Below, in pieces: positions 9,951 through 63,069 of a stretch of DNA of 64,000 bases; the first letter of the stretch is position 1, and each line of letters begins with the position of its first letter. The notes under the pieces are model-generated. The model worked only from the letters and a program-made list of their open reading frames with translations. It did not search any database and was not told the DNA's origin. Source of the DNA: Chrysomallon squamiferum (taxonomy: Eukaryota; Mollusca; Gastropoda; Neomphalida; Peltospiridae); contig CM022678.1 in NCBI GenBank assembly GCA_012295275.1, forward strand, positions 1,096,191-1,160,190, read 5' to 3'. A program made the translations under genes and the position numbers.

Positions 9951-10348
9951 ACCACTTTATTAAAGTGACAAAATCTTTTCATATTTTCTAAGCTACGCTA
10001 TGTTACCTGTAATGCTAATTATGTGGGTTACTTTCAAAGTTACTCATTAACAAAACCTGGTGACACCTGTTTACTGAACCGAATAACTGCGTAAATCCCA
10101 TGATTTAGAAAATATCGGGAAAAATATCAAACAACGACAGATTATTATTTTTTTTTTTTCATTTTTTTTTTTCTCGGTGTGGGATCGTTTATACTACTTT
10201 TTTATGTATGAAAGGTTTTTGCTGGTCCATTTTGTCCGGCTGTGCAGTCTTGGTTTGGTGGGGGCCTCTTTCCTGTAGAGCATGTGGTCCGTAACTCGTC
10301 TCTATTTCATTCTTTATGAAAGGAAAACAGAGTACTCTTCCTTGCCTG

Positions 10349-10435
10349 ATGATTCACAGAGCAAGCAGACGGCAAAGAATCTGGGTCACTTCGTTAGTTG
10401 ACAAATTTCGAGTTTTACTTCCTTTTCTACTGCAG
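10349..10435 (+). promoter_or_regulatory. Candidate non-coding first exon, copy 1 of 4
   Basis: Reads GATTCACAGAGC..GCAGACGG and ends CTGCAG|GTAGGG, a good donor. Three related copies lie at 57566, 61008 and 62669. It sits 4.4 kb upstream of the nSTAND-ankyrin start codon and could be that gene's 5'-UTR exon and promoter. This is inferred from conservation of exon and donor. Confidence 0.5.
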
Positions 10436-10439
10436 GTAG

Positions 10440-10973
10440 GGAAAACTTATACTCTATTATTTTATCTAGACAATTTAATACATTAATCTTATGACAAATT
10501 AAAATTTCAGTTTCTTACTGCACGCATTTGCACAAAAATAATCCAGTTTGAAAAGTTTGGTTAAGTTGAAAAAGTAGTTAGGAAAGGTATCACTGTTTAG
10601 TAATATGAGCAACCATCCTTATCTTTATTAGCGCAAATCATTAAAAGAAATAAGAGGAAATGGACTTAAAAATGTTGAATTTGAAAGTTTAAAATCTCGA
10701 TGTGACGGTTTCCGAGCGTATACGGAAATTTCAGATCGAAATTCAAGATTGCGGACGGTTAGTGTTTACAAACTTTTAAACATATATTTCTTCATGATGC
10801 AGTCATTTCTACATGGATTATTAACGTATTTTAAAAAAAAATATGTCATATAATCAATGCCTCGTATATATAGACGTCCATTATTGAGTAGAAATAGTTG
10901 CAAAGATCGATAGATATTTTGTGGTTTTTGGGGGGTAACTTTGAAGATATATAGCCTTGTACCCATTTTGTAC

Positions 10974-14829: not shown

Positions 14830-16466
14830 ATGGACAACAAAAACAAGAGTTCAGAAGTTTCTTCTAACAGCACAGCTGCTGCTTCCACAGACAATATCAG
14901 AGCTGTTTCTTCTGTAGAGACTGAGACAGCTGTTTCTCTCTTAGACAGTATGACAGGTGTTTGTCTCTCTAACATTGCATCTCAGTCTTCCTTTGATGTC
15001 GCAAAAACACAACATCATTTACAAGTACCTGTATCAAGCAGTTGTGGTAATATGCACAGTATTTTAATATAATGTTTACTTTTTTGATAGAATATTATAA
15101 GCATTAGAATTTTGTTTATATTTATAACAATAGAATATTTCAATGTATTGTTTATGTTATTGATGGTAAATTCTAAACTGACAAATGTATTATTTACATT
15201 TGGAACAAAACACTGTTTCAGTATATTGTTTAGTTCCGTCTTAGGTATTAGTTAAATTGACACTTTTTAAATTTATATTGATAATGAATTAGCAATTTAA
15301 AGTTTTACAGATTAAAACAGTAATTCAAAATACACACTACAGACTGTTTGATTATGACCATTATAATTATTCTTGTATTTATTGTTATACATTTTTATAC
15401 TGTAAAGTAATATTTATTTCATAACAGCTAGACATAATCAGTCAAAAACATTTTTAACATATATTGTTTTATTTAATAATGCTTTTGACAAAAACAGATT
15501 GTATTAATACTGTATGTTGTCCTTACAAACATTTTTAAAAATTATGCTTCTGAGTGGTAAATTTAAAAAATGTACTCTGTTTCACAGATACTCCAATAAT
15601 ACAACTTGTACAACGGAAACTAAATATATCTGACTGTGGAAATGTTCTAATAGGAGACAATAGCACTTTAATCAGTAAGTTGAAAACTAAAGTTGTTTTC
15701 TTTTCTCTAGATGTTTAGTTGATAACAGAACACACATGTGACATATTGATTCTCAAGGAGATGTGTCCAGATTCTGAGATATGAATAGATTTGGCATCCA
15801 CATGCAATGTTGTCTCTAATGTATCATGTATATATCTTGGAAACTGACTAAGTTGTACTAAGAAACACATTTGTTAAAAATCCCTTGAAAATTCATAATT
15901 AGCCTGCAACAGAATATCCTATCAATAACTTGCTGAATATATATATTTGTGAACTTGGTGGAGGTTTTGTCCTGTTTTTGGTGCTCATGAACTTACTGGA
16001 TGTAACCTAAAACAGCAGTGAACTACACAAGTAAAAGGTAAGTAACAGACAAGTTGATATCACCAAGCTCACCCAGTAACTGTTTAGAACTCATTTTTCT
16101 TTGTGCTGACCTACCAACTATATAGCTACATTTTCCCACGACAAAAACTACTTATTTTTCAAAAATTTAAATCAAATATATTTTAAACCATTAATGTTGG
16201 CCAGAATGCAAAGCCCACATGTCATATGTGACCTGTGTCAACCAATAACCAGTACACTTCCAAGGATTCTGTGATCTGCTATTCTTTGCTAAACTTTATT
16301 TCACCTGTTTCTGAACACTGCTTCTAAAATCGTCATTTTCATTATCTTACATGTATATGCATGTTTTACATGTAGGCTGTGAATGTAAATTATTTATTTT
16401 TCTACATTTGCAACAACATAAGCAGTGGTAGAACATAATGTAAAACAAAAATACAGTACAAAGAAC

Positions 16467-16521
<55 letters not shown>

Positions 16522-17005
16522 GCATAAGCATAATAGTAATAATACTAATAAAAATAATAATAATTATAATTGTACTAATAGTATGAACAATAACAATAAC
16601 CAAATAATAATAGTCATAAAAAACAACAGCAGTGGTTTTAATAATGGTAGTAATAATTACAGTAAAATAGATAATGAAGGTATAATAATAATGTTACGTG
16701 TTAACAGTTCCCTGAATAAAGTACAGACTAGTTGTACAGATCAGTTTCATCATTTCTTTTACTCATCATCAATAACACAAACTTGTTTTATTTTTATATT
16801 ATTTCAGCAAAGACTGGTGGACGAGTATCCAGTATCAAAGGTATTATTTTTATTATTATTATTTTTATTATTATTATTTGTATAGTTTTCAAACATAATC
16901 ATCTTGTTGCTTTTGCACCATCTGAAATTGTCACATCTTATTATCTTCATTAAAATCTATTGTAATTACTTTTTTAAACTTCATATCTAACAACCAGTTA
17001 ACAGT

Positions 17006-17057
<52 letters not shown>

Positions 17058-20000
17058 ATAGTAAAATATGCTCTAAACAATCATGATTTGTTTATTTTAT
17101 TTTATTTTTTTTATTTAATGTTGTGATCAGAGTGTACCAGGTCAGTGTTAAACTCAGTTGACTGGAGTGTCTATGTTGAAACAAGAGCAGAGAAAAGAGG
17201 TGTTGCACTTTTGAAGAAGAACGGTGTTGTCATTGTGATAGGATGTCCAGGTTCAGGAAAGACAACTCTTGCTTTGAGCATGATGAGACAGATGGAAAAA
17301 GAAGAAAAAAGAGTATCTTACTTGCTGACTCATCACTCTGAATTCAGTGACATCTCTCTATCTAGAAATAAGAAATATGTTGTTCTCATTGATGATATAT
17401 TTGGTAAGACTAATCTTGTTTCACATTTTAGAGACTCATGGAAAGAGAAATTTCCAGAGATATGGAGTCTTGTTCATGCTGGTTCTTTGAAATGTATTAT
17501 TTCTTTAAGAAAACAAATATATTCAGAAAGTGAAACTAGTTTGAAGGAATTTGACCTGTTTAATGAGAATCATGTTCTTGATCTGCAGAGTTATCACTGT
17601 TGTCTGTATGATTATGAAAAGGAAGAAATTCTAAACAAATATCTCAAAAAAAAGTATGTTCCAATGCATGAAACTGATAAAATGACTGTCATTAAAAGTT
17701 CATGTACAGAGTTAGGATTTCCTCAGGTGTGTGTGTATTATATTAATTCAAGTGATGCACAAAAACGAGGAGTTGAGTTTTTCAAGAAACCTGTAGAATA
17801 TCTCACACAACAGCTGGAAAATATGAAAAAAGACAAAACTTTACAGATCAATTACCTGGTTCTACTGCTGATTTTGTTCAAAGAAGGCTGTCTCAGCATT
17901 GATTCACTGGATCCATCTCAAAATGACTCTGACAGTGACATAATGAAATTAGTAAGACTGCTAGAGCGAGTCTGTCAGAGTGTGAAAAACACTGGTCTTA
18001 CAGAGATCAAGGAAACAGCTGATGTACTGTGTGGTACCTATTTGAAGTGTTGTTACAATGAATACACATTTATTCACCAGTCAGTGTTTGACTCTGTGTT
18101 TCTGATGTTTTCATCAAAGTTTCCAAAGAAAGCAGCAGAATTGCTAGAAGTGAGTCCTGTCTCCATGTTGTTAGAATATGTTGATACGCCTGGAGTGTCT
18201 AACAGAAGTCATATTACATTGACTGTGAGACCTGACTGCTTCGATTTTCTTGCTCGCAGATTCACTGACCTGCTGGCTTCAGACAATTTCATAGAAATTA
18301 TTTCACATCCATCACTGAAAGACGAAGACTTTTTAAAATACCTGATAGAGGAAAAATACTTTTATGGTAGATTATCTGAAATTCTACATCAAAGACTATA
18401 TCAAAATACTCCTGAATTGCAGCAAAGACTATATCGTTTACATACATTTGGGAGCCTTTATATATCATTTGTTTGTGTAAACACTGCTAATGAAATATTT
18501 AGAAATATTTCCTGTCTTCTTGACAATGAATCAAGGTTTCATTCTCATCACAAATGGTACTTAGAAGTTGAAGAAAAATTTGCATATTCGTCATCTGTTC
18601 CAAGTGAGTGTATTGTGAATGGACTAAGAACATTGTCAAAATGTTTCACATCAAATCTGTGTAACATGAAACTAACATTTGTGATGAAAGAGCTTTTGGA
18701 TATTTCTTGTTTGTTTGGTGATGAAGATGTTGTGAGAATGTTGCTAAAATCAGGTGTTATTCCAACATTTGATACATTCAGTGCAGCTGCTTGTTCAAAA
18801 ACAGACAGTGCTACCATACTCAAAGAACTGTTTTTTTATAAAAAGGTGGTAAACTTGAATTTGTATTCCCACTTGTTACATATTTCATTTTGTTCAGGTA
18901 ACATGAACATTGCCTGTCTGTTGGTTGAGATGATAAATAATGAGAAACACAACAGTGAAATCAAGGAAGAAGCTGTGAAACTGTTTTTGGTTAGATTCCA
19001 TAGAAAAGTAACATTTAAATCAAGCTGCATGTGTTTGGAAAAGGCTCTTAAAGTTGCTGATGTAAGCCATATTTTAAAGAAATTGGTTACCATTGATATA
19101 ATAAACAAAATTAAAGACATTGCTATCATTGCTGCTGGTCAGAGGTCTTCAAACATTATAAAAGAAATAGTAAAACTGAAACCTGATTGTTTAAATGATG
19201 AGAACAGAGATAAAGTACTTTTAGCAGCAGCAATGTGGGGATCTACTGATACAGTGAATTTTCTCATTGAGCAGAGATGTAATGACAAGTGGAAGAAAAG
19301 TCAAGTACTGAAAGTGGCAGTGATGTTTAACAGTGCAGATGTTGTTCAGTGTCTTATTGATAAAGGAACTGATCCTAATGTGAATGTAGCTGTTAACAAG
19401 AAATTGACTGAGTACTTTGAAGAGGAAATTGAATTGAAACTGTTGCCTGATTACAACATAAATATAAATAAACTGAAATTGTGGTGTAGAGATAAACCTA
19501 GTCTGTTGCCTTCAGACTCACCCCTCCACATTTCAGTTCTGTGTGGTGACTTGGATATATTAAAATCACTGATAAAGAGAAATGGTGATGTTAATGCTGT
19601 AAACATTGAGGGAAAAACTCCACTTCATGAAGCTGCAAAAGCAGTGACAAACAGAAAGGAACTAGCTTTGTTGTTACTGGAAAGTGGTGCTAATACTAAC
19701 ACTGCAGATAAACAAAAGAATTCAGCATTGCACATAGCTTGTCAAATTCACATAGATGTGGTGAAAGAAGTAACAAAAAGGGGTGTTGAAATAAATGCAA
19801 TTAACTCTGAAGGGGAAACTCCTCTTTTTTTATCCTTACTCTATGGCAGACCAGAAATCACTTTATACTTACTAAGACAAGGAGCTGATCCTAATTTAAG
19901 AGACCGTTATAACAATTCAGTTTTACACGTAGCAGCTCAACAAGAAAATACAGAAGTTTTGGCAGCACTGATTGAAAAAGGTGTTGATGTAAATAATAAA

Positions 20001-21902
20001 AACAGAAGTGGTGAAACTGCTTTTTTTACAGCAATGTATTCCTACAAACATCATTTTTATGGACATCAGAATATAGAGTCTCATAAGAACAAAGCTGTTT
20101 TGTATTTACTTCAACATGCAGCTGATCCTAATTTAACAGAGAACGATAAAGATTTTGTTTTACACATAGCAGCTGAAGAAGGAGATATAGACCTTTTGAT
20201 AGCACTGATTGGAAAAGGGTTTGATGTAAACATCAAAAACCTTCGAGGTGAAACTCCTCTTTTTACAGCTCTTAACTGCAAACATGATAAAGTGGTTTTG
20301 TATTTACTGGAACATGGAGCTGATCCTAATTTAACAGGTATTGGTAACAATTCTGTTTTACACTTAGCAGCTAAACAAGGAAATATAGAAATTGTAACAG
20401 CACTGATTGAAAAAGGTGTTGATGTAAATATTAGAAACACTTCAGGGGAAACTGCTCTTTTCACAGCTGTTCGGTATCAACAGAAGAAAGTAGTTTTGTA
20501 TTTACTGGAACATGGAGGTGATCCTAATTTTACAAACGATAGTAACAATTCTCTTTTAGGCCTAGCAGCTAATCATGGAAATTTAGAAATTGTGACAGCA
20601 CTGACCGAAAAAGGTGTTGATGTAAATATAAAAGAGAGTCTTCTTGGTTATACTCCTCTTCTTACAGCTACAAGATGCACATCGAACAAAGTATTTTTCT
20701 GTTTACTGGAACATGGAGCTGATCCTAATTTGACAGACAATGGTGACAATTCTGTTTTACACCTAGCAACTGAAAACGGAAAGAGAGAAATTGTAACAGC
20801 ACTGATTGATAAAGGTTTTGATGTAAATATTAGAAACAGAAGAGGTGAAACTCCTCTTTATACAGCTCTGAATTACCAGAAACCTGTGATTGGTACAGTA
20901 GATGATATATACTGTTGTAAGAACAAAGTAGCTTTTTATTTACTGGAACATGGAGCTGATGTTAATTTAACAGACAATGATAGCAATTCTGTTTTACATG
21001 TAGCAGCTATACATGGAAATATAGAAATTGTGAAAGCACTGATTGAAAAAGGCTTTGATGTAAATATGAAAAACACTAGCGGTGAAACTCCTCTTTTTAC
21101 AGCTCTGAATTATGATGTATTTCATTTTTGCGAACATCAAGATAAGAGTAAAGTAGCCTATTATTTATTGGAACATGGAGCTAATCCTTGTTTAACAGAC
21201 AGTGATAATAATTCTGTTTTACACCTAACAGCGAAACAAGAAAATATAGAAGTTTTGACAGCACTGATTGAAAAAGGTGTTGATGTAAATATCAGAAACA
21301 GTCGAGGTGAAACTCCTCTTTTTACAGCCATGAACTCTATACAGAATGAAGTAGTTTTTTATTTACTGGAACACGGAGCTGATCCTAATTTATCAGACAA
21401 TGATAAGAATTCTGGTTTACTCCTAGCAGCTAAACATGGAAGTCTAGACATTGTGACAGCACTGATTGCAAAAGGTGTAGATGTAAATATTAGAAACTGT
21501 AGAGGTGAAACTCCTCTTTTTACAGCTTTGATTTGCTACGACATATATTTTGGCCAAGATCAAGATATGTACTCTCGTAAGAGCAAAGTAGCTTTGTATT
21601 TACTGGAACATGGGTGTGATCCTAATGTAACAGACAATGATAACAATTCTGTTTTACACATAGCAGCAGAAACTGGAAATATAGAAATTGTGACAGCACT
21701 GATTGAAAAAGGTGTAGATGTAAATATTAAAAACTGTAGAGGTGAAACTGCTCTGTTTGCAGCTGACCAGTATAGACAGTGTGAAGTAATGTTGTATTTA
21801 CTGGAACATGGAGCTGATCCTAATTTAACAGACAAAGATAACAATCCTCTTTTGCACCTAGCAGCTCAACATGGAAAGAGAAATTTTGACAGCACTGATT
21901 GA
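14830..21902 (+). CDS. NLR-like receptor: amyloid-type motif + nSTAND NTPase + ankyrin repeats (about 1,702 residues)
   Basis: Exons 14820-15046 (ATG 14830), 15588-15674, 16808-16840 and 17131-21902 (TGA). All three introns are phase 1. Residues 1-72 are Ser/Thr-rich and low in complexity. Residues 73-102 carry the amyloid-like motif GNVLIGDNSTL. After an 11-residue linker comes an NTPase with P-loop GCPGSGKTT (about 150-158), Walker B VVLIDD (about 196-201) and a sensor-like CIISLRKQIY; this arrangement matches nSTAND (STAND-class) NTPases of invertebrate NLR-like proteins. An alpha-helical middle follows. From about residue 909, 22 full ankyrin repeats alternate as two 33-residue types (a 66-residue double unit). 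The expected role is ligand-triggered oligomerisation in the cytosol. A 2-nt deletion near 21873 ends the frame inside repeat 23. Function is inferred from architecture only. Confidence 0.85.
15588..15674 (+). other. Exon encoding an amyloid-type (HET-s/RHIM-like) motif
   Basis: An 87-nt phase 1-1 exon (29 codons) with acceptor TTCACAG and donor GTAAGT. It encodes NISDCGNVLIGDNSTLI, which lines up with the 21-codon exons at 51852-53948 (NISHSGSAQIGNNYV type). The downstream intron start (GTAAGTTGAAAACT..TTTTCTTTTCTCTA) is also conserved in all six related exons, so they arose by exon-plus-intron duplication. Confidence 0.75.
16468..16520 (+). repeat. (TAA)n microsatellite
   Basis: About 17 trinucleotides, in the intron before the 33-nt exon at 16808. 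Confidence 0.95.
17010..17055 (+). repeat. (TA)n microsatellite
   Basis: About 23 dinucleotides, some 75 bp before the acceptor of the large nSTAND exon. Confidence 0.95.
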
Positions 21903-22200
21903 AACAGGTGTTGATGTAAATATTAAAAACACTACAGGAGAAACACCTTTTCTTAAAGCTTTTAAGTGTCAACAGAATAAAGTAGTTTTTTATTTACTGA
22001 AACATGCAGCTGATCTTAATTTAATAGACAAAGATAACAATTATGTTTTACACATAGCAGCTAAACAATGAAATACAGAAATTCCATTGCACTGATTGAA
22101 AAATATGTTCATGTACAAATTAGAATTTTCTCTTGTTACAGCTATGAACTCTACACAGACTAAAGTAGTTATGGACTTACTGGAACGTATATTAAAATTA
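21871..22200 (+). pseudogene. Decaying 3' ankyrin repeats of the nSTAND-ankyrin gene
   Basis: Beyond the 2-nt deletion the ankyrin code continues in another frame (ALIETGVDVNI, then GETPFLKAF, then YLLKHAADLNL). It meets a second in-frame stop at 22069, where a GGA-type codon became TGA, and then degrades further. The ancestral protein was therefore at least two to three repeats longer. If the locus is expressed, the working protein ends at 21902. Confidence 0.85.
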
Positions 22201-26219: not shown

Positions 26220-27600
26220 TTTAAACATTAATAGCAATGCAGTATTTTTCAAGAACTCTTATTATAGTGCACAGGCTTAGTTCAGTGATTTTTATTGTGT
26301 ATTTTTGTAAAGTTTAGTAAAATTTGGAATAGCACTAGTAAATCTGTGTGTTTCTGGTTGACTATATCTACTCAGCAAAGCAGCAGAACAGCTGAGAAAC
26401 ACAGCCAGAACCTGCCCCAGTCAGCTCACACCACACCCTCAAAAGAGAAAGAGCAAATCCAAAATGAAGTAATAAATTACAACTATGATTTTTCATTATC
26501 ATCCTTGTGAGATCAGTAAAATTTCATGATTTAAAAAAAAAAAAAATTAAATATTTCTTTTTTAATAATAACATCTAAAATTACTATTAATATTTTATCA
26601 TTTACAAAAAACTCAAACAAAACCTGTATATATTTATATTTCCGTAATTTATTTATTCAATAACTTTAAGACTACAGAGTACAACAATATACCTGGCAAA
26701 AGAATATAGCTATACACAAATTATATTTATATTTGTATTGTTTATATAACATGATTTAATACAATTCACAAAACTAAGAATATAACTTAGGAAAACTATT
26801 GACATGTTATATTTATTTTTGTACTGTTTATATCATATATGACATAATTTAATAGAATCCACAAAACTAATAATATAACTTAGTAAAACAATTCACTTTA
26901 TATTTATATTGTTTATATAACATAATTTAGTAACAGGATTGACAAGAGTAAGTGGAATTGATTCTAATATTATTTATATGATCCTGCACATAAATCTGAA
27001 ACCTGAACTATCTCACCTGACCAAGCTGTGATTGTTGTACATGCTTTTAAAATTATTATTTAAAATTGTGTTATTATTCAAAATAGAAAGATGTTTTTTT
27101 CACAAAATAATATGACATGGAGTTTGAAAGTCAAACACGAAAGTGCATGTCCACTTTAAATCAAATAGTCTGTCACTTATGTAACTGAATTCCGATGATG
27201 TGTTATTGCTGTTAAGTGTTTAGAATTTTTTTAAACTTTTATTTGTGTATGCAGACTGATTAACTAGTGTTTCGAGTACAAAAAAATGATTTAAATGGAA
27301 AGTTGATGGAAATCTAAAATATTGTCTGTGTAGTAATTTCACATTGCACAGGTTTAGTTAATTTCCAGTGATTTCTGACAACTGTTTCCTTTATTTCTGT
27401 CATGTATATTTGTAATGTTTAGAAACAATTGGAATAGCACTAGCAAACCAGTGTGTGTTTCAGATTGACTGTGGTTACTCGACAAAGCAGCAGAACAGCT
27501 GAAAAATACAAAAACCAGAGCCCATCACCACAGCCTAAAAAAACAATAAAGAACAAATCCACAACAAGGTGAGAGTAATTAATTAGAAGTAAGTTATTAC
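26220..27600 (+). repeat. Tandem duplication of about 1.1 kb in the second gene copy
   Basis: 26260-26470 and 27345-27575 share GGAATAGCACTAG and CAAAGCAGCAGAACAGCTGA. The second copy ends AACAAG|GTGAGA, a possible exon end. No frame is conserved in both copies, so coding is doubtful. Confidence 0.6.
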
Positions 27601-28017
27601 ATAACAACCTTGTAAAAATTGTTATTCATGAGAATTTCTAAATAACATAATCTAACACCTCTGCTCAAAAAATTAAAAAAATTAGGATGTTTATTAAAAC
27701 CATTTTTAATAAAGACAGTCTATAAGGCTAAGACTTGTATTAATACAAGGAACTAGATGTGCTCCAGTGTATTCAGATCTGTACTTAAGATTGGTTAAGG
27801 CAGAATTGTTAAAGATTTGTTTTGCACTCTGTCAAACTGTTAAGTTAAATAATAATGGCTTTTATGTGTGTATACTGCAGTTTGAGAAAAACCTGATACA
27901 CTAACATTGAAATCTGTTGTAAGTGTCGTTATGAAACATGAAACATTCTATTCTTAATCATCACAAAGTTGTAATTATTTTTTTATATTGTGAATTTAAA
28001 TAATTTCTTTTATTCAG

Positions 28018-28131
28018 TTAGACAAACACAACCAGTGGTAAAACACAATGTAAATATCAGCACAGTTCAGAATTACCAGGATGTGTCTAATAACAGGAAT
28101 GATGTGTTTGGAAATCAAGTTATTAATACCA
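28018..28131 (+). other. Diverged motif exon of the second gene copy
   Basis: A 114-nt phase 1-1 exon (38 codons) with acceptor TATTCAG and donor GTAAGTTAAAAACTGAAA, the same donor context as the other motif exons. It encodes NISTVQNYQDV and then NDVFGNQVIN, a weak echo of the x-V-x-I-G-N core. The similarity lies mainly in exon phase and flanks. Confidence 0.55.
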
Positions 28132-38870: not shown

Positions 38871-38927
38871 TTTTTATCTATCTATCTATAAATAGATAGA
38901 CCAAATAGTCATGAATAGATCTATCTA

Positions 38928-39740
38928 CGGAGATAAAGTACTGTTAGCAGCAGCAATATGGGGTTCTGCTGACACATAGATTTTTCTCATTGACCAGAGA
39001 CATAATGATACAGATGAAAACAACTGGAAGAAAAGTGAAGTACTGAAAGTAGCAGTGATGTTTAACAGTGTAGATGTTGTTCAGAGTCTTCTTGATAAAG
39101 GAGCTGATCCTAATGTGAATGTAGATGTTAACCAGAAATTGATTCAAGTGTTTGAAGAGGAAATTAGATTAAAACTGATCCGATGAACACACTAGATTGA
39201 AACTGTTTCTTCTATGTAAACCTAGTTTGAAATTGTTGCCTTCAGACTCACTACTCTACATTGCAGTTCTGCGTGGTGACTTAGATATGATAAAATCACT
39301 GATAGAGAGAAATGCTGATGTCAATGCAGTAAACATTGAGAGAAAAACTCCACTTCAGGAAGCTTTAAAAGCAGTGACACACAGAAAGGAAGTAGCTTTG
39401 TTGTTACTAGAAAATGTAGCTGATACTGATATAACTCTTAAACAAAACAATTCAACATTGCACATGACATCACAAATTAACATAAATATGATGAAAAAAG
39501 TAACAAAAAGCGGGGTGGTTGAAATAAACGTAATTAACAGTGAATGTAAAACTATTTTTGTATCCTTACTCTATATTATACCAGAAATACCATTATATTT
39601 ACTAAAACAAGGAGCTGATCCTGATTTAACAGATAATGACAACAGTTCTGTTACACATGTAGCAGCCAGAAATTGTGACTGCACTGATTAAAAAAGATGT
39701 TGATGTAAATATTAAAAACAGTCGAGGTGAAACTCCTAAT
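38928..39740 (+). pseudogene. nSTAND-ankyrin pseudogene fragment (second copy)
   Basis: Matches about 19200-20300 of the main gene: KVLLAAAIWGSAD, VLKVAVMFNSVDVVQSLLDK, then LLPSDSLLYIAVLRGDLDM and ankyrin repeats up to RGETP. It has stops at TAG 38977 and TGA 39183, frameshifts near 39185 and 39670, and an internal deletion at the end. It begins abruptly beside the LINE fragment at a TATC-rich inverted repeat (38870-38925). Confidence 0.9.
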
Positions 39741-40400
39741 TTTTTTTTTATTAAAATTATTTTGTGGAATGTATTGGTCTTTAAATTACACTGAATGATT
39801 ATTTTGTATAAATATATTGTTTCTTTTGGTTTTCGTGATGTTTCTTTGCTTGCAAGAGCAATTTTGTTATTGAATGTTGTTGTTGTTGTTCTTTCTTTCC
39901 TTCTTTCTTTATTTATGTATTTTTATTATCATCAAATAATAATAGAATGTGAATTTTGTAGATGCGAGGTAGTTTGTTTAATTACTTTCAAAAGATTCTT
40001 ATGAATGAGAAAAAGAAGCAAATTTAAAATGTTTATTTTATTTTTGTTTTCGATATATATTTATATATAGAGAGAGGGGTTAGCTTTGGTTTACATTTGT
40101 TTTGACTGACGTTTAATTATGAACATCTCACATTAAATAATTTTCTCAAATATTATTCATGCACTATAAAGATGACTTTAACTACTACCAATAACTAAAC
40201 GCCAATAAGCAATAAAAAGTATTTTTCAGGTGCCATTTTTTCCAAATCTGCACAGTCCATTTCTTCCAAGTGCCATTATTTCCGTACCCCACGATGACAG
40301 TAACGTTGTCTCCTCCCACTTTCCATCAAGTTAAAACTGTACCCATCACTATCCTTACCTTGCAAACTTCACCCAACCTATTCTACAATTTTCTTTTCAT
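39741..40400 (+). repeat. 3' flank shared with the third copy
   Basis: GGAATGTATTGG..TTTAAATTACA and CTCCTCCCACTTTCCATCAA also occur at 56350-57105, so the two pseudogenes share one downstream flank. Confidence 0.8.
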
Positions 40401-43304: not shown

Positions 43305-44561
43305 TCATTGAGTTGTTTTTCGAGCACGTCTAGGATATCTTGGGGTTGACGGTATTGGTAGTTGCGGTACATCGTCAACAGTATCGTCGATGGCATTAGA
43401 AGCATCCTCTACGGCATTAGAAGTAACTGTTCTGTTTTTCATCTCAGTCTCTTCCACCTGAACGGTTGGTTCAACAAATTCCATTTCAGACTCAGTACCA
43501 ACTGCAGACAGTTCTGGGGAAGGGTTCCTATTATCCTCAGAATACGCACATTTACAAAGTTGATCCACATGTCTTTTACACACAAAATCTCCGACTTTCA
43601 CTCTGTGGGTAACAGGCCCTAGCTGACACAGTACTTTTCCACTCAACCACTTGTCAGATCCTGTGTTGTTCTTCACTTGTACTGAATCTCCAACATTGAA
43701 CACCCGTGTTTTACTTGCTTTTGGAATAGTTCTCTTTTTAACAGAGTTCTCCAAACTTGGACGCAAAATATCCAATCTCGTTCAAACACGTCTGCCAAGA
43801 AACAATTCTGATGGGGTACATTTTGTAGTACAGTGCGGAGTGTTCTGATATGCAAACAAGAATGATGAAATCTTCTGGTTCATGGTTCGTGACTCAACTG
43901 TTTTCATTGCAGTTTTGAAAGTACAAACAGCTCTTTCTGCCTCACCATTTGAACTTGGATGGTATGGAGCTGATTTGATGTGTTTTACTTCATTTTTCTT
44001 AAGAAATGTTTCAAATTCCTCTGCAACAAACTGAGGTCCATTATCAGAAATCAACTGCTCTGGCATTCCATAACTTGCAAAGAGATTTCTCAATGTCTCT
44101 ACTGCATGCTTTGCTCTGGTACTGGAAAAACTTCCATCCATTTAGAATGTGCATCCACCACAATAATGAACATTTCTTTCATGAATGGTCCAGCAAAATC
44201 AACATGTATTCTTTGCCATGGTTTGTTGGGTCAAATCCAATCTAGCCAAAGATTTCATATGCACAATTCCTATTTGATTTTCATGAAGATAATACAGAAT
44301 ATCTGTTCAATATTTATCGGGAATAATCGCTCGCATTCCTCTGAGAAGACAGTGTTTCTCCACTGTTAATTTATCTTTCACTCTGAAATAAGGTAACAGC
44401 TCGGGTGAAATAGAAGATTCTTCTGGCCATCCAGACATGTTATAATGTACAACCCGAGATAATACTTTGTCAACTTCAGTTGCTTTCACAATGTTTCTTG
44501 CAGTGATAGGTAATCCATTGACTTGATTTCTCATTGCTTGCTTGACTTCATGCCAAAACAC
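43305..44561 (-). pseudogene. Retrotransposon integrase region
   Basis: Three open pieces (44561-44307, 44141-43782, 43775-43305) cover the N-terminal part, the catalytic core and the C-terminal SH3-like part. The DDE residues are visible: VDAHSKW near 44160, DNGPQF near 44040 and GEAERAV near 43945. They are in separate pieces, so the gene is non-functional. Confidence 0.9.
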
Positions 44562-46033
44562 ACTTTCAGATATTTCTTCAGTTTGCAGAAGTGGTAGTCA
44601 GGACAACGCATCAGCATTTCTATTTTTGTAGTTTTTCTGTATTTAATGTCAAACTGATATGCGGCTAACTGAATAGCCCAACGCTGTAGTCGAGAGGCTG
44701 TCAGAACAGGAATATTCTTTTTAGGTCCAAGAATCATTGTCAGTGGTTTATGATCTGTGAACAAAGTAAATCTTCTACCATACAGGTACTGATGGAACTT
44801 GTGTATTCCAAAAATTATTGCCAATGCTTCTTTCTCAATCTGGGAATACTTGCGTTCTGCTGATGTCAGAGTTCTAGAAGTGTATGCTTGCTATTGGCCT
44901 ATCTGATCCTTCATTTCCATGTGATATTACCACTCCAAGACCATGCGCAGATGCATCTACTGCCAACATTACTGGTTTCATCGAGACATAGTGGACAAGA
45001 ATTTTAGATGATGCTAACAGTTTTCCCACTTTGGAAAATGCTTGGTGACAATCATCACTCCATTTCCACTCTGAGTCTTTGGTTAACAACGCTGTTAGCA
45101 GTGCCACCACTGTTGACGTGTTGGGTACAAACTTGCGATAGTAATTCACAATACCTAACCAAGATTGCAACTCACTCTTGTTTTAGGTTCAGGCACTTTC
45201 AGAATAGCTTCAACTTTTCTTTCAGAGGTTGAATCCCATTTTTGTTCACAATAAATGCAAAGTACTCAACTTCATCTTTCATCAGTGCACATTTGGACCT
45301 TTTCGGTTGAATTCCATATTTTTCTAGGCGTTTCAAAGTGTTTTTCAATGTTTCAAGTGTTCGGTGTCATCCTTTCCAGTGACTATGATGTCATCCAAAA
45401 TGTAACCTACACCTTTTAGCCCTTGAAGCATTTTGTCCATAGTTTGTTGAAAAATAGCAGGCGCTGCAGCAACTCCAAATGGCAACCTTGTATAGCGATA
45501 AAGTCCAAGGTGAGTACTGATTGTGACATAGTTCCTCGACTCTTCATCAAGCAACACTTGCTGGTATCCATGTGACAAATCCAGTTTGGCACTTCCAACA
45601 CAGGATTTACGGTAACCTTGTAATCGCCACAAATGTGAATGGTATTGTCAGGTTTTAAAACAGGTACAATAGGAGAAGCCCACTCTGAAAAATCCACCTT
45701 TTCTACAATTCCTTCTGCTTCAAGTCTGTGAAGTTCATCAGCAATCTTTTCCTTCAAAGCATAAGGTACTGGTCTAGCCTTGAAAAACTTTGGAGTAGCA
45801 TCCTCTTTCACTTTCAGATGAGCTCTTATGCCTTTTACTGTTCCCAACTCATTTGAGAAAACTGAATATCTACTGAACAAATCTTCAGAGTTTCCATAGG
45901 CTTTCATAATCTTAATACTGTTCCAATCCAACTGAATGTTTTGGAACCAATTCCGTCCAAACAAAGTTGGTCCATTTCCTTTCACCACAATTAAAGGTAA
46001 AAGTTTTTTCTGCTTTCCATATTTAACAGTCAC
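44531..46033 (-). pseudogene. Retrotransposon reverse transcriptase and RNase H
   Basis: RT pieces 46033-45416 and 45632-45345 carry ADELHRLEAEGIVEK, the LPFGVAAAPAIFQ segment and YILDD. RNase H follows in 45170-44874 (LAVDASAHGLGVV) and 44824-44531 (LFTDHKPLTMIL). Confidence 0.92.
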
Positions 46034-46482
46034 TCAATTTGCTCCAGGACTGGCACCACTTCATCTGTATAAGTTTTCAACACAATCGATGTTGATTTCA
46101 ATGGCACTGTTTTCTTCAATCTTTCCTGATAATTCTTATTAGAAATTATCGATACAGAAACACCTGTATCTACTTCCACTTTGAATGGCACACCATTGAG
46201 TTCCAATGAAATTTGAATTTCTTTCGCTTTCATAGATTTCACTGTGAAAATTGACTGTTCAAAATCACTGTCATTTCTTTCCATTGCAATCTCTTTATTT
46301 TCTAGAACAGCTTTTATAATTTCTGATTCAGTTGTGTTACTTCCAGATTCTTCATGAATTTTTAAACCTGTCTCAAATTCAGCATTTTCAATTTCCAAAT
46401 CACTGGTACCACTTTCTGATTCCGTAAGGTCCCTATCAGAATCTTGATTCACAACATTCAGTTTAGAATTTTTCTTTTTCAA
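46030..46482 (-). pseudogene. Retrotransposon protease region
   Basis: Contains the aspartic protease motif VEVDTGVSVSII with DTG. An acidic Glu/Ser-rich stretch precedes it. Ends at a TGA overlapping the RT frame by a 1-nt shift. Confidence 0.9.
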
Positions 46483-46499
46483 CTATTGAAATTTCTTTT

Positions 46500-47220
46500 T
46501 TCCTTTTTCCATCTGTTTGCTTTCCTGTCTTTCTATTTTTTTCTTTTGATTTCAACATTTTCTACTCAAATGTCCTGTTTCATTACACTTGTAACAGTTT
46601 GCCTTTTTGTAAAAACAAGCATCAGGATGATGATTAGTTTCACTGGAAGCATTCAATGACAGAAACTTTGTGGAACTTTTCTGTTTCTGACTTAATTCCT
46701 ATTTTCAGCTTGTCAGTTTTTCTAGCTGCCATTTCTATACTAACAGCTGTTTGCAAGGCTTTCCTCAGTGATAAGTCATGTTCAGAGAGAAGTTTTTTCT
46801 GTACTGACTTTTCAGACAGACCACAGACCAAAATGTCTCTTAATGCTTCAGTCAAAAATGCACCAAATTCACAATGTTCTGTCAATTTTCTTAATTCAGC
46901 CAAAAATTCACTTACAGTCTCTCTTGTTTCCATTGATAGAATTTGAACCGTTCCGCAATCATCAAAGGTTTTGGTTTAAGATGATTTCCTATCAAGGTTT
47001 TCAATTGTTCGTCAGTTTTACTTGCCGGTTTCTCAGGCGAAGTCAGATTTCAAATCAACCTGTAAGTCGTGGCACCACATACGGACAACAAAATGGAATG
47101 TTTCTTTTCAGCATCATCTACATCATTCGCCAGCAGATACTGTTCCCAACGTTCGATGTATTCATCCCAATCAGAATTTTCTAGATCAAACTCTTCAACT
47201 TTACTGTAGGTAGCCACATT
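46500..47220 (-). pseudogene. Retrotransposon gag region
   Basis: Open piece 46933-46640 reads RETVSEFLAELRKLTEHCEF and DILVCGLSEKSVQKKLL, the typical retrotransposon gag capsid pattern. A CCHC zinc knuckle lies at 46602-46555. Upstream gag code to about 47210 is in shifted frames. Confidence 0.88.
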
Positions 47221-51851: not shown

Positions 51852-51914
51852 GACAACTGACAGCAAACGTATCTCATTCTGGTTCTACTGAAATAAGCGG
51901 TAACACTATAAACC
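51852..51914 (+). other. Motif exon 1 of the right-hand array
   Basis: 63 nt, phase 1-1, 21 codons. It encodes QLTANVSHSGSTEISGNTIN; the core I-G-N is interrupted by an extra serine. Acceptor CTTCAG, donor CC|GTAAGTTAAAAACTG. Confidence 0.7.
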
Positions 51915-52190
51915 GTAAGTTAAAAACTGAAAGTTTTCTCTTCTCTACATGTTTAACAGATAACACAGTACTTAGTAGACATTAGTACTTTTGTCAGACA
52001 TTGTGAACAACATAGAAACGTGCACATCAAGACATAGACACAATATATAAAAAAGAAAATTAGTATTTCAACCACTGCTATACATCCGACAGTGATATCT
52101 AATTCTCAGAATTTTTCAGCTAAAACGTTTTTAGAAATTATGCATTGAAGTTGTGAGTTATAAATAGGTATTTACTTTGTTTCGCTGTAG

Positions 52191-53043
52191 GACTGTATAT
52201 TAATAAATGTACCTCTTGGTTTTATGATCTATGGTGAACTAGGACGGTATCCCCTTGGTATTTCTATAAAAGTAAGAATGACAACCTTTTGGAGGAACCT
52301 AATTTGCAAAACAAAAAAAAAAAAAAATATTTCCTCACAACTATATTATTTAATGCATGTTATCGATTCTCCTTGGAACAGATTTGTAAAATATATTTTA
52401 GATGATTGTGGTTTAACATATATTTGGATATATCTCAACTTTGATAATGTTAAATGGATACGAGAAACGATATCCAAAATATTACATGATCAATTTCAAC
52501 AGTTTTGGAAAAATTCTAAATGAAACATCTCCAAAGGGTATTAATTATAAACATTTAAAAGATGAATTGAAATTATAAACTGTCTTACTTTGCTGTCTCA
52601 AAAGAATGCCAATGTCTTATGTAAATTTAGAACCTCGAAGGCTAAACTTCCTATTGAAACTGGACAATGGTCTAATATTCTAAGAGAAAACAGAAAATGT
52701 CATATCTGTAATCTTAACAAATCTGGAGATGAATATCACTATATATTTGAATGTAATGTATGTATTATTAAATGCGAGAAAGGGTATACCAGACAAATAC
52801 ATGAGACATCCAAATATAATTTCATATAGCTATATTTGTTAATAAGAACTATATGTGAGAGATTATGTCCTCCACGTTAAACTTCCACGCTTCTGCATTT
52901 TAATTTTGTTTCTATATATCTGTAATACATTCTTCTCTGTACTGCAACCCTACAATTTATGAGAATAAAATCATTGTAATTGTCATTGCCAGCAAACACA
53001 ATTCATTCTGGTTCTACTGAAATAGGAAATAGGCATGAATCCG
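52191..53043 (+). other. Motif exon 2, split by a LINE insertion
   Basis: The exon start (CTGTAG|GAC) is at 52191-52193. The rest, CAAACACAATTCATTCTGG onward, is at 52988-53043 with donor GTATGT. It encodes NTIHSGSTEIGNRHES. Compared with 53493, only about four bases are missing around the insertion. A CCAG at 52989-52992 could act as a new acceptor and would keep phase 1. Confidence 0.75.
52194..52987 (+). mobile_element. LINE 3' fragment inserted in motif exon 2
   Basis: Encodes the C-terminal part of a non-LTR retrotransposon: LGRYPLGISIKVRMTTFW, then SKAKLPIETGQWSN and the zinc-binding CHICNLNKSGDEYHYIFEC (C-x2-C...H-x4-C), followed by a short 3' UTR ending AATAAAATCATTGTAATTG. It is 5' truncated with stops and a frameshift near 52560. 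Confidence 0.85.
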
Positions 53044-53492
53044 GTATGTTATAAACTGAAAGTTTTCTTTTCTCTACATGTTTAATAGATAACAGACTAC
53101 TTAGTAGTCATTAGTATGTTCTCTCAGACACTGTGACGTGAACAATGTAGAAACGCGCAAATAAATACACGGACCAATACATATAAACATACATATCTGT
53201 AACTAGTCTTAGCACATACACAGAATACATACACACAACACATACACACATATATGCACACACATACATATGCATACATGCATTACACAGACACACAAAT
53301 TTAGACACAGTGTATGTATATTAAACTGTATGCTGCCATGTTTCTACATATACACTAAAAATGTGTTTCAAACACTGGAACTACATTTAATAATTATATC
53401 TAATTGTCAGAATTTTGTATGTAAAAATATTTTTAGAAATTATGCATCGAAATTGTGAATTATAAAAATGTATTTAATCTGTTTCACTGCAG

Positions 53493-53555
53493 GACAACAG
53501 CCAGCAAACATATCTCATTCCAGATCTACACAAATAGGAAATATGTATTTACCCG
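53493..53555 (+). other. Motif exon 3
   Basis: 63 nt, phase 1-1, encodes QQPANISHSRSTQIGNMYLP. Acceptor ACTGCAG, donor CCCG|GTAAGT. Confidence 0.78.
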
Positions 53556-53885
53556 GTAAGTTAAAAACTGAAAATGATCTCTACTCTATGTGTTTGATAG
53601 ATAACAGAATACATAGTAGTCATTAGTACATTTCTGTCTCACACTGTGACTTGAACAACATAGAAGCATGAATATAAATACATAGACACAATACACATAA
53701 ATATACATACCTGTACCTAGATGTAGCACATACACAGAACACATACATACATACATGCATGCAGAGGTTCATTACACATTCAGTAATTATTTCTAATTCT
53801 CAGTATTTTGTAGGTAAAAAGATTTTCAGAAATTATGCATTGAAATTGTGAATTATAAAAATGTATTTGCTCTGTTTCACTACAG

Positions 53886-53948
53886 GACAAGAGTCAGGAA
53901 ACATATCTCATTCCGGATCTGCTCAAATAGGAAATAACTATGTATCCG
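53886..53948 (+). other. Motif exon 4
   Basis: 63 nt, phase 1-1, encodes QESGNISHSGSAQIGNNYVS. Acceptor ACTACAG, donor TCCG|GTAAGT. It starts 393 bp after exon 3; the preceding intron is also duplicated. Confidence 0.78.
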
Positions 53949-54449
53949 GTAAGTTAAAAACTGAAAATTTTCTTTTCTCTACATGTTTGATAGATAACAG
54001 AATACCTAGTAGGCATTAGTACTTTTCTGTTTCACACTGTGACCTGAACAAGCTGCACGTGTGATTCACTGTGGCTAAAGGAGACGAGTGCAGATTGTTA
54101 TACATGAAAATATTTAGAATCCTGATGTAATATCTTTTCCACTACATCATGTACAGATCTTGAAATTGACTAAGTTGTAACAATTTCCAATACTGATGTC
54201 ACCATTTCATCACAAGAAACACATTTGTTAAAAATCCCTTAGAAAGTTATAAGTAGCCTGCAACAGAATACCCAACCAATAACTTGCTGAAACACTGAGA
54301 AATTTTATATCATAGAATTGAAAAACATTCTTATGTTGATTACAGCAGGTCAGAAATATGAAAATGTTTGTGTCCAGATGCTAAAAGGCATGGTCTGTGG
54401 CAGATTAAAAACAGCCTGTTGATGAAAGAATGTTTGCAAAAATAATAAT

Positions 54450-56123: not shown

Positions 56124-56330
56124 GCTGTGATACAAAGTCTAGCAGTCAGTGTCTATCACTAAACAAGAGCAGAGAAAAGAGATGTTACACTTTCTATTAC
56201 AACAGACAACAAAAACAGTTCTGTTTTACATCTAGCAGCTTTTTGTGGAGCTTTGTTTGAAAAACGTGTTGATGTAAATATTATTAACTGCGATGGTTAA
56301 ACTCCTCTTGATAAAGTTTGAATAATAGTT
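56124..56330 (+). pseudogene. Third nSTAND-ankyrin remnant, internally deleted
   Basis: Begins with the acceptor region and first codons of the nSTAND exon (GTCTATC..AAACAAGAGCAGAGAAAAGA, cf. 17165-17206). It then jumps at about 56196 into ankyrin code (SVLHLAAFCGALF, then VDVNIINCDG) with a stop before TPLDKV. More than 3 kb of the parent exon, including the whole NTPase, is missing. Confidence 0.88.
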
Positions 56331-56349
56331 AATTTATTTTTTTATTAAA

Positions 56350-57250
56350 AACTATTTCGAGGAATGTATTGGACTTTAAATTACATTGAATGGTTATTGT
56401 GTATAAGTATTGTTTCTTTTGCTTCTAATGATGTTGATTTCATTCTAAACACGATATTATTATCTATTATAATCGTTGGTGTAGTTCAACCCGCTGTCCT
56501 GCTCTGTTGCTTTCTGACTTCGTATTGAAACCAGTTTTGAGAAACGTGATATATTAGAACATTCAGTGACGTCACAGAGTCACAATAGCAACACACTGTA
56601 TTGAAATAAACGGGTGACCTAGAACGAACTGCAGTTAGAAGTACACAGACAAGTTAAACATGAGATATCTGCTTGTTAGTCTTGTGACATTTCTTCAAGT
56701 CTTGTGTAGCGTAGTTAAATATCTGCATTTATCCATCAGCTAATTTGGTTTCAGGTGTTTCTGTGTAGTTCTGTATACGTGAGTGTTTGTGTGTGTGTTC
56801 GTCTGTGTGCGTGTTCGTGTGTTTGTCTGTCTCTTTATGTTTGTGTGTGTTTGTATACGTTTTTGTTTGTGTGTGTGTTCTGTGTGCGTGTTTGTGTGTC
56901 TGTCTCTGTATGTTTGTGTGTCTGAATGTGTATGTGTCTGTCTGTTTGCCTTTGTGTCTCTGTGTTTATGGCTGTGTGTGTGTGTGTCTGTGTGTTTGTG
57001 TGTTTTTATGGTGTGGGTGTGTTTATGTGTACCTCTAAATACTATTAAGTTATTGCGAGGCTCGATGACAGTAATCCTGTCTCCTCCCACTTTCCATCAA
57101 GTTAAGAAAAATAAAAGTTTCTGCATCCCAAGACGACTCCACTTTGTAGAAAATTAGACCAGTCAGTCTCATTACGCGATGACGTCATGATTTCAGCTAG
57201 GATGTGCTACAGTCGTTAAATGTTTTGTAATTGTTCCTGTCAAACTTTGT
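56350..57250. repeat. Flank shared with 39741-42790, plus GT-rich repeat
   Basis: 56604-56680 matches 42706-42789 (TGACCTAGAACGAACTGCA), the sequence into which the retrotransposon inserted. A TGTGTGTT-type repeat fills 56780-57035. Confidence 0.8.
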
Positions 57251-57565: not shown

Positions 57566-57653
57566 GACGATTCACAGAGTGAGCAGACGGTGTAGAATTT
57601 GTGACAGTTCGTTAATTGTAAAGATTCCAATTTTATTTCGATTTCAACTACAG
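57566..57653 (+). promoter_or_regulatory. Candidate non-coding first exon, copy 2
   Basis: GACGATTCACAGAGTGAGCA...TTCAACTACAG|GTAGGC. The 130 bp upstream (TTTACACTGTCACCAAGCAA) matches 60920-60950. Confidence 0.5.
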
Positions 57654-57669
57654 GTAGGCAAACCTTTTA

Positions 57670-58567
57670 CTACACTGCTATTACTTCACTGTTGATTGTC
57701 TGCTTATTTCATTTGTTTTACAAACTTAATTATGTTATTTTAGTTTAGTTTATTTACTTCTGGTTTTTTTGTTATTTTTGCGGCGAACACGGAATGTAAC
57801 ATCAGAGACTTGGCTCACTTTTGCGTTTTCATTTTAAAATAATATATCAACAATTATCTGCTAATAAAACTGCATTATAAATAAATAAATAAATAAGGAT
57901 TTATTTTTATATTATATTTTTCATCGAATAATAAGTCGAAATATATCTTTGTGTAAACAAAAATATAATTAATACATAATAATAATAATAAAATAATAAT
58001 AATAATAATAAATAAACAAATAAATAAATAAGCAGCATCTACGAATATGTTGTTCAGTTATAAAGCAGTACAAAGATGAATAAATATCTACGGAATATCT
58101 GCTTTAAACAATAGAAAGGAATTGACTTGTTTCGTCAAATGATAATGCTGATGTATGGTTTGAATTTTATTTTTTATTTGTTTCTTTGTTATTGTTTTTC
58201 TTTTTTTCTTTTCTTTTCTTTTCTTTCTTTCTTTTTTTTTTTTTTTGTTTTTGGTCGCTTAATATGGAATTTGTGTTTTGACTAGGTCATGAAACATTCG
58301 CATTGTTAAATATTTCGACTTCATTAAATGAAAATTTAATTATTTGTTTAATTACATCTCTACGATAAATTAAATCAATTGATAAATAGTTCGATACAAA
58401 TCATTTTGTAAATGTTTATTAAAACTTAATAATAAAATCAACAAGGTCTGTGTTACTCTCCGGTGAGATCATTGTCACGTGATCTAAACATTTTGAAATA
58501 CTTAACATGAGATTTGTCACGTAGACACCACTATATAATAATAATAATAATAATAATAAAAATAATC

Positions 58568-61007: not shown

Positions 61008-61084
61008 GACGATTTACAGAGCGTGGAGTTTGTGTCAGTTTGTTAGTTGACAAGATTCGAGTTTTACTTCGATTTGTATTAGAA
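61008..61084 (+). promoter_or_regulatory. Candidate first exon, copy 3 (degenerate)
   Basis: GACGATTTACAGAGCGTGGA... with the GCAGACGGC segment deleted and the donor changed to AGAA|GTAGGC. Probably weakened or dead. Confidence 0.45.
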
Positions 61085-61329
61085 GTAGGCAAACTTAAAA
61101 TATACTGTTTTTAGTAGTGACTGTTGACTGTTTATTTAATAATTTTAAATTTATAAATTGTTGACAGTGATCCCGGCTTTCGTTTCAGTTTTCATTTAAA
61201 AATAATTATGAACTAATAAAATTATATTTCTTTTTTTCTTTCTTCCTTTTTTTCTTTTTTTTAGTTGATTTATAAAGCAATAAATATACGACCAAAAAGT
61301 GTATTATCATCATCCCATTATATTTAATT

Positions 61330-61734: not shown

Positions 61735-62440
61735 CACATTTTTGACAGTGATGGCGCATGCTGTTAACCAGACGTTGGAAATAATGTTGAGGAATCGCTT
61801 GTCCTGGAACCAAGCTCCTGGTCCAATCCGCTGCAGAAGTGGAATTACAAAAGCTTGAACAATCTCGTTCAGATAACGCTGACCAGTCAAATATTCAATA
61901 ATGATGTACACTTACTCCTCCAAAATGGCAGCACATATTTTTTCTTGAAGACGGTAAACACAAATAATGTGTGTGAATAATGTATCTGCCAGTTGTCCAC
62001 GGTTCCATCAGATATCACGTCCGCACCAATCAAGATGAGCCATTCTGCGACGGACAAGTGGCTGTGGTCGGACATTGCAAATCTCGGTCTCGCAGACGAC
62101 TCCTAATGGTCCCGTCAGACACAGTGTTGCCTGTAGCAGCTCTGAGTTGATCACAAATTCTACGTGCGGGAACAGAATGCTGTCGCAACCCTTTTATCAT
62201 CAGGAAACGGTATTCTCGTTTTGTTGTTGATCGTAGTCGTCCACAGTCTTTCGATAAACACTTTGGTTTACATTTAGACAGTGAGCCACAGATCTTTGAG
62301 TGTGTCTTTCTTGTAGCCAGCCAATGACTCTTCTCCTGCCTTGCAAACTGAATTGTTGTCGAACCATCTTCAAATTTAAAGTGATGATGAAAGCAAAATG
62401 CTGATCCCGTTTAGAACTAAAATTTGTCTGCACTGAATCA
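61735..62440 (-). pseudogene. Tc1/mariner-type transposase remnant
   Basis: Minus strand: N-terminal HTH part GRRRVIGWLQERHTQRSVAH (62433-62200), a degraded middle (IGADVISDGTVDNWQ near 62030) and TGQRYLNEIVQAFVIPLLQR (near 61890-61830) followed by an FQD. The last piece corresponds to the Tc1 segment before the second catalytic Asp. Frames are broken. I did not find terminal inverted repeats. Confidence 0.75.
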
Positions 62441-62668: not shown

Positions 62669-62756
62669 AACGATTCACAGAGCGAGCAGACGGCGTAGAA
62701 TTTGTGTCAATTCGTTAGCTGACAAGATTCGAGTTTCACTTCGATTTCAAATACAG
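62669..62756 (+). promoter_or_regulatory. Candidate non-coding first exon, copy 4
   Basis: Reads CGATTCACAGAGCGAGCAGA...AATACAG|GTAGGC, preceded by TATCACGTGACGTGTCTAA with an E-box CACGTG. A target gene would lie beyond the right end. Confidence 0.5.
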
Positions 62757-63069
62757 GTAGGCAAACCTTACACTATATTCCGGTCCGACATCCGAAACTT
62801 GGCTTTCGTTTCAGTTTTCATTTAAAAGCTATTATGAACTAATAATATTATAATATATTTTTTGCATTGTTGTATTTGTTGGTAACTGCTAATGCCCGCA
62901 TTGGTAACACAGGAAAACATTAAATATCCAAACAAACGGTATATTTTAAGTAGGTATGCAGGAAGTAGGCCTGACTCTGTGACCGGTTTTGTTCTGCCTT
63001 GCGCATCAGTCGCTGCCTTTTTGTTGTATTAATCGGCCGTAGTTTTAGGAAGATGGTATCTGTAAGGGA

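Follow-up and report, generated by a model that had tools for sequence, protein, structure and literature searches.

A candidate RHIM-like motif on a symmetric exon of a molluscan STAND-ankyrin gene family

Does an animal genome encode, on small and copyable exons, an amyloid motif of the kind by which fungal and bacterial receptors signal? The question is raised by a stretch of 64,000 nucleotides from the gastropod Chrysomallon squamiferum (contig CM022678.1, positions 1,096,191 to 1,160,190; hereafter the window), in which the first-pass annotation had described an array of tandem 21-codon exons at 51852-53948 and had likened them to HET-s and RHIM amyloid motifs. NLRs with N-terminal amyloid motifs are already known from fungi and bacteria, and RHIM proteins from animals. 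NLR-associated amyloid signalling seems to be confined to fungi and bacteria (PMC9815663). According to PMC7889193, the amyloid motifs of mammals occur in protein architectures unlike the fungal and prokaryotic ones, and the same source asks whether metazoans have any signalling amyloid besides RHIM. Our analysis points to a molluscan family of STAND-ankyrin receptor-like genes in which a separate phase 1-1 exon encodes a RHIM-like motif at the predicted N-terminus, likely to serve as an amyloid relay; judged from the sequence, we give this reading slightly less than an even chance.

The intact-looking member of the family, gene 1, comprises four predicted exons on the plus strand. Exon 1 (14830-15046) contains an ATG, counts 72 codons up to its phase 1 end, and has splice borders and an open frame. 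Exon 2 (15588-15674) is a homolog of the array exons with 29 codons in phase 1-1; it carries the core NISDCGNVLIGD, which corresponds to residues 85-96 of the predicted protein. A linker of 33 nucleotides, exon 3 (16808-16840), is also of phase 1-1 and has splice borders, and exon 4 (17131-21902) encodes an nSTAND3 NTPase (Pfam: PF20720, expectation value (E) 1.7e-27) followed by many ankyrin repeats (Ank_2, 458 bits). With the predicted splicing, the four exons give one continuous frame of 1,702 codons closed by a stop. A STAND NTPase with C-terminal repeats marks gene 1 as a putative STAND/NLR-type receptor gene, and the RHIM-like exon 2 takes a place N-terminal of the NTPase in the predicted protein, as the amyloid motifs of fungi and bacteria do. 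The frame stops at 21902; ankyrin homology, detected by tblastn in another frame, runs on at 21880-22185. An alignment with protein P0003 of the deep-sea snail Gigantopelta aegis spans the join of exons 3 and 4 (25 of 61 residues identical, E 3e-11; 3 of 9 in the exon 3 part).

The array lies on the plus strand as well. Copies 1 (51852-51914, QLTANVSHSGSTEISGNTIN, with the tetrad TEIS), 3 (53493-53555, QQPANISHSRSTQIGNMYLP, with the tetrad TQIG) and 4 (53886-53948, QESGNISHSGSAQIGNNYVS, with the core SAQIGNNY) are exons of 63 nucleotides with AG/GTAAGT borders and an open phase 1-1 frame. The first-pass annotation had counted four such exons in tandem; three are intact, but the fourth – copy 2, with the ending NRHES – is split. 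Its homology to copy 1 breaks off at 52193, on the acceptor side, and is taken up again at 52987. The gap measures 793 bases here and 3 bases in copy 1, which leaves the acceptor half of copy 2 detached from the donor half; the 3' part with the donor covers 52987-53043. By eye, the insert (52194-52986) resembles the tail of a long interspersed nuclear element (LINE); a Pfam scan of its longest frame returned a sub-threshold match to UPF0236 and no confirmation of the LINE-like look.

The copies form a family of direct repeats, whose repeat unit takes in the flanking introns too. DNA matches between copies are above chance (E down to 1e-98), and copies 3 and 4 share 88% identity over 276 bases. 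In the DNA comparison, the exon region of gene 1 is matched across the exon by copy 4 (E 6e-14) and copy 1 (E 3e-11), and by copy 3 in two flanking pieces only (E 2e-7 and 3e-5); the intron downstream of copy 4 (54075-54291) matches intron 2 of gene 1 (15752-15937). A diverged family member is the motif exon of gene 2 (28018-28131, plus strand), which spans 38 codons by border reading and is homologous to the array in its downstream flank. Exon 2 of gene 1 and the gene 2 exon were both located via such shared flanking DNA, and not via the motif.

The likeness to RHIM was scored with a BLOSUM62 profile of the human RIPK1 and RIPK3 12-residue RHIM cores (printed in PMC9918910), applied to all 59,395 stop-free 12-mers in the six frames of the whole window. 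Rank 1 is held by gene 1 exon 2 with a score of 22.0. A plus-strand 12-mer at 46994, at the edge of a retrotransposon, follows with 20.5 and is the sole 12-mer above 20 from outside the family; rank 3 is shared by array copies 3 and 4 with 20.0 each, a placing that counts for less because both were chosen by eye as RHIM-like. Exon 2, which lies outside 51852-53948, is thus the only one of these top-ranked exons that is free of selection bias. The next-best 12-mer in gene 1 reaches 14.5, and the best in the eight related proteins P0002-P0009 reaches 16.0; similarity to the RIPK1/RIPK3 cores stands above the window background. The same 12-residue core is found in register, and exon 2 is identical to RIPK3 at 6 of 12 positions, the number that RIPK1 and RIPK3 share with each other. 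When the columns of five aligned family members were permuted jointly, 110 of 200,000 orders were as RHIM-like as the real one (120 of 200,000 with the gene 2 exon added).

What these values have to be weighed against is the possibility of a disordered, fast-evolving linker, encoded by the small exons ahead of the STAND domain, whose resemblance to RHIM is coincidental. We regard this explanation as a serious one, at somewhat below even probability. It fits poorly with the first rank of an exon from outside the reported range, with the in-register match of the whole family in the permutations, and with the position of the motif just ahead of the STAND NTPase. Yet S, N and G abound in the array peptides, and a number of results speak for a linker or otherwise against a RHIM-type motif. 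Copies 2 and 1 of the array rank as low as 36 and 120 of 59,395, and the gene 2 exon scores 5.0 in register and 6.0 at best. A score of 22 is also reached by 217 of 5,000 shuffled versions of the whole gene 1 protein (4.3%) and, when just the first 112 residues are shuffled, by 65 of 20,000. The in-register tetrads are VLIG, TQIG, AQIG, TEIG, TEIS and DVFG; none has the form V/I-Q-V/I-G of RIPK1 and RIPK3, the VLIG of gene 1 is without the RHIM glutamine, and copy 1 has TEIS. TQIG, as in copy 3, is the natural tetrad of lamprey RIPK3; human RIPK3 with TQIG keeps ZBP1-dependent death and loses NF-kB activation (both PMC12119088).

Database comparisons add to these objections. Pfam, with E values up to 10, contains no family matching the N-terminal 125 residues of gene 1 or the joined array exons, a search in which the filters of HMMER may lose matches as short as a RHIM motif. 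In the PDB, neither the motif peptides nor their profile found a RHIM or HET-s chain; the lone match to the motif is an antibody fragment with E 1. As PDB queries, the human 12-mer cores recovered eight RIPK1/RIPK3 sequences. The profile comparison by which the first-pass annotation would have checked its proposal accordingly came out negative for the RHIM family of Pfam and for the RHIM and HET-s chains of the PDB, and the RHIM half of the proposal draws its support from the top rank of exon 2 and from the permutations. An effector gene was recognised in none of the nine frames scanned with Pfam (31 frames of at least 110 amino acids were listed), and no partner effector with a matching motif was seen within the window.

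The homologs of gene 1 point in the same direction. The first protein search scored 7,990 candidates, namely those sharing most words. The nearest proteins are P0003-P0006 of Gigantopelta aegis, with 40-44% identity in the STAND region, followed by the scallop proteins P0002 and P0007; these neighbors support an animal, probably molluscan, origin. Five nSTAND3-ankyrin proteins of Gigantopelta (P0003-P0006 and P0009) were compared; like gene 1 they have an ankyrin C-terminus, and they are 40-44% identical to it in the STAND region. P0005 and P0006 possess almost nothing ahead of the STAND domain; the other three carry a long segment there, but in none of them did we find a convincing RHIM-like core – an observation that favors a linker. 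By eye, conservation of the motif seemed plausible in P0003 (NAVALGD) and P0009 (NTLVLGP), but scoring gave no support: with the human profile these candidates rank 12 of 1,927 in P0003 and 29 of 1,300 in P0009, and a profile built from the exons in the window puts them at 142 and 107, respectively. The QGIGN repeats of P0004 and the N-terminus of P0002 are similar by eye too, but without a high score; the best pre-STAND 12-mer of P0004 reaches 12.5 with the human RHIM profile. Pfam reports no RHIM match in P0003 or P0004. A further difference from gene 1 is that residues 1-27 of P0003 and P0009 are hydrophobic and resemble a membrane anchor.

The first-pass annotation had also equated each 21-residue exon with one repeat of the HET-s beta-solenoid, so that every additional exon would add a layer. 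The array exons do have 21 codons each, and HET-s consists of two pseudo-repeats of 21 residues (PMC5485727). The intact gene, however, has an exon of 29 codons, and that of gene 2 has about 38. Nor is the HRAM pattern present, which requires 21 residues with hydrophobic positions 3, 6, 8 and 14 and a G at 17 (PMC5485727): the three array exons and the gene 2 exon satisfy one of the four hydrophobic positions each, and the gene 1 exon satisfies three, a number reached or passed by 186 of the 829 21-mers with G17 in the window background. Moreover, a RHIM-like PP fold would differ from the HRAM solenoid (PMC7885112). We therefore rejected the solenoid, which seems to us very improbable. The fungal PP motif NxGxQxGxN (PMC9815663) is likewise not found; copy 4, read from its sequence, carries only the right half, QxGxN.

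A separate question is whether the array is still functional. It sits in a third gene of the family, where it is followed by the intron 2-like stretch at 54075-54291 and then by a STAND/ankyrin remnant (56148-56435, plus strand). In this remnant the start of the STAND exon is fused to the ankyrin end; the STAND core is gone, and stops interrupt the frame. A second copy of gene 1 exon 1 was not detected in the window by tblastn with E up to 1; a stretch at 51268 recalls the start of exon 1 by eye and lacks an ATG. Because the start exon was not found, the STAND domain is deleted and stops lie in frame, the array appears to reside in a dead receptor gene; as far as the sequence tells, this paralog looks decayed, unless it is spliced to something beyond the window. 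We therefore regard the array at 51852-53948 as a probable non-functional relic, its exons having been multiplied by local duplication in what is now a pseudogene; the insert that splits one of the four copies is in keeping with this. Such a relic is compatible with a RHIM-like motif in gene 1.

Three copies, on the other hand, have kept their splice sites and open frames, and the gene could have a different first exon or, further downstream, a partner that lies beyond the window. In the pairs formed by copies 1, 3 and 4, differences in the exon compared with the adjoining intron amount to 20 of 63 versus 20 of 143, 19 of 63 versus 13 of 143, and 10 of 63 versus 16 of 148 (Fisher p = 0.004, 0.0003 and 0.36); the excess in the exon is significant in two of the three pairs. 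In all three pairs, amino-acid changes per site (pN) exceed silent changes per site (pS), which also speaks against a mere relic. Together these differences are a hint at diversifying selection on the array exons, and no proof of it, since each exon offers few sites and the three comparisons depend on one another. For comparison, the fast-evolving sites of primate RIPK3 surround a conserved tetrad (PMC12119088).

Gene 2, too, is broken: its ankyrin remnant (38927-39745, plus strand) is 78% identical to gene 1 in DNA and broken in frame, and there is no nSTAND3 match near it. Upstream of the gene 2 motif exon, a piece of DNA is duplicated (26298-26508 and 27403-27613, 74% identical); by eye it contains a small lysine-rich exon, a further hint of exon duplication at this locus.

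If gene 1 does encode a receptor with a RHIM-like relay, its mode of action could be as follows. The ankyrin repeats would bind a ligand, whereupon the nSTAND3 NTPase would switch and oligomerise. Brought together in this way, the N-terminal motifs would nucleate a cross-beta stack of RHIM type, which might recruit other RHIM proteins, for example molluscan RIPK1-like kinases, and thereby trigger NF-kB or cell death. RIPK1 homologs with a RHIM have been reported from the zebra mussel and other spiralians (PMC12119088), and a CARD-RHIM protein has been predicted for a bivalve iridovirus (PMC12452177); molluscs thus seem to possess RHIM proteins into which such a receptor could signal. The motif exon has the same phase at both ends, so that extra copies of it leave the reading frame intact. 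This would account for its fourfold occurrence in the neighboring paralog; the decay of that paralog would then have come after the multiplication of its exons.

How does this arrangement compare with known systems? In RIPK1 and RIPK3 the RHIM belongs to a kinase, whereas gene 1 is predicted to carry its motif N-terminally in a STAND-ankyrin protein; also unlike RIPK1 and RIPK3, the window family has one motif per exon and contains copies of this exon. The fungal NLR amyloid systems – PNT1/HELLP with the PP motif and NWD2/HET-S with HRAM – have, like gene 1, an NLR-type NTPase with superstructure-forming repeats that is preceded by a short motif, and the PP motif has a G-x-Q-x-G core in common with RHIM. 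In contrast to these systems, gene 1 is an animal gene, it is split by introns, it deviates from NxGxQxGxN, and no neighboring gene for an execution protein was recognised in the examined part of the window. The bacterial BASS motifs are tied to an NLR-type NTPase as well, and BASS3 has been called a homolog of PP and RHIM (PMC12261475); no gene pair with an effector was seen in the window.

Among the literature matches listed, which cover titles and abstract openings and few subscription papers, there is no report of a molluscan STAND receptor with a RHIM. With a RHIM-like exon at its N-terminus, an animal STAND receptor would supply the arrangement that has been missing. More generally, and with greater reserve than for the family itself, we propose that animal NLR-type receptors may signal via an N-terminal RHIM amyloid motif on a duplicable exon, and that such motifs may be gained or changed by exon shuffling. 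If true, this would contradict the view, put forward in PMC9815663, that NLR-associated amyloid signalling appears limited to fungi and bacteria, and it would connect the RHIM of animals with NLR-based origins. Whether RHIM and the fungal PP motif share their origin or have converged could then be tested directly, and the exon-cassette layout would offer a simple route to altered signalling specificity.

As regards the remaining content of the window, no tRNA was found in it, and no Rfam family reaches the gathering score. A short stretch occurs four times (10348-10458, 57566-57671, 61031-61111 and 62672-62779; 76-86% identical in the pairs listed), and its copies at 57.6 and 62.7 kb end at a likely donor, CAG|GTAGGC. 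These are possibly non-coding first exons of the receptor family, in which case a further receptor gene may start beyond the window. A reading frame at 62030-62410 on the minus strand shows a weak match to the helix-turn-helix of a Tc-type transposase (PF01498, E 0.0065, below the curated cut-off). Also on the minus strand, a retrotransposon of the long terminal repeat type extends over 43305-46975 in several broken frames, with matches to integrase (PF00665, E 1.2e-9) and RNase H (PF17917, E 1.1e-24).
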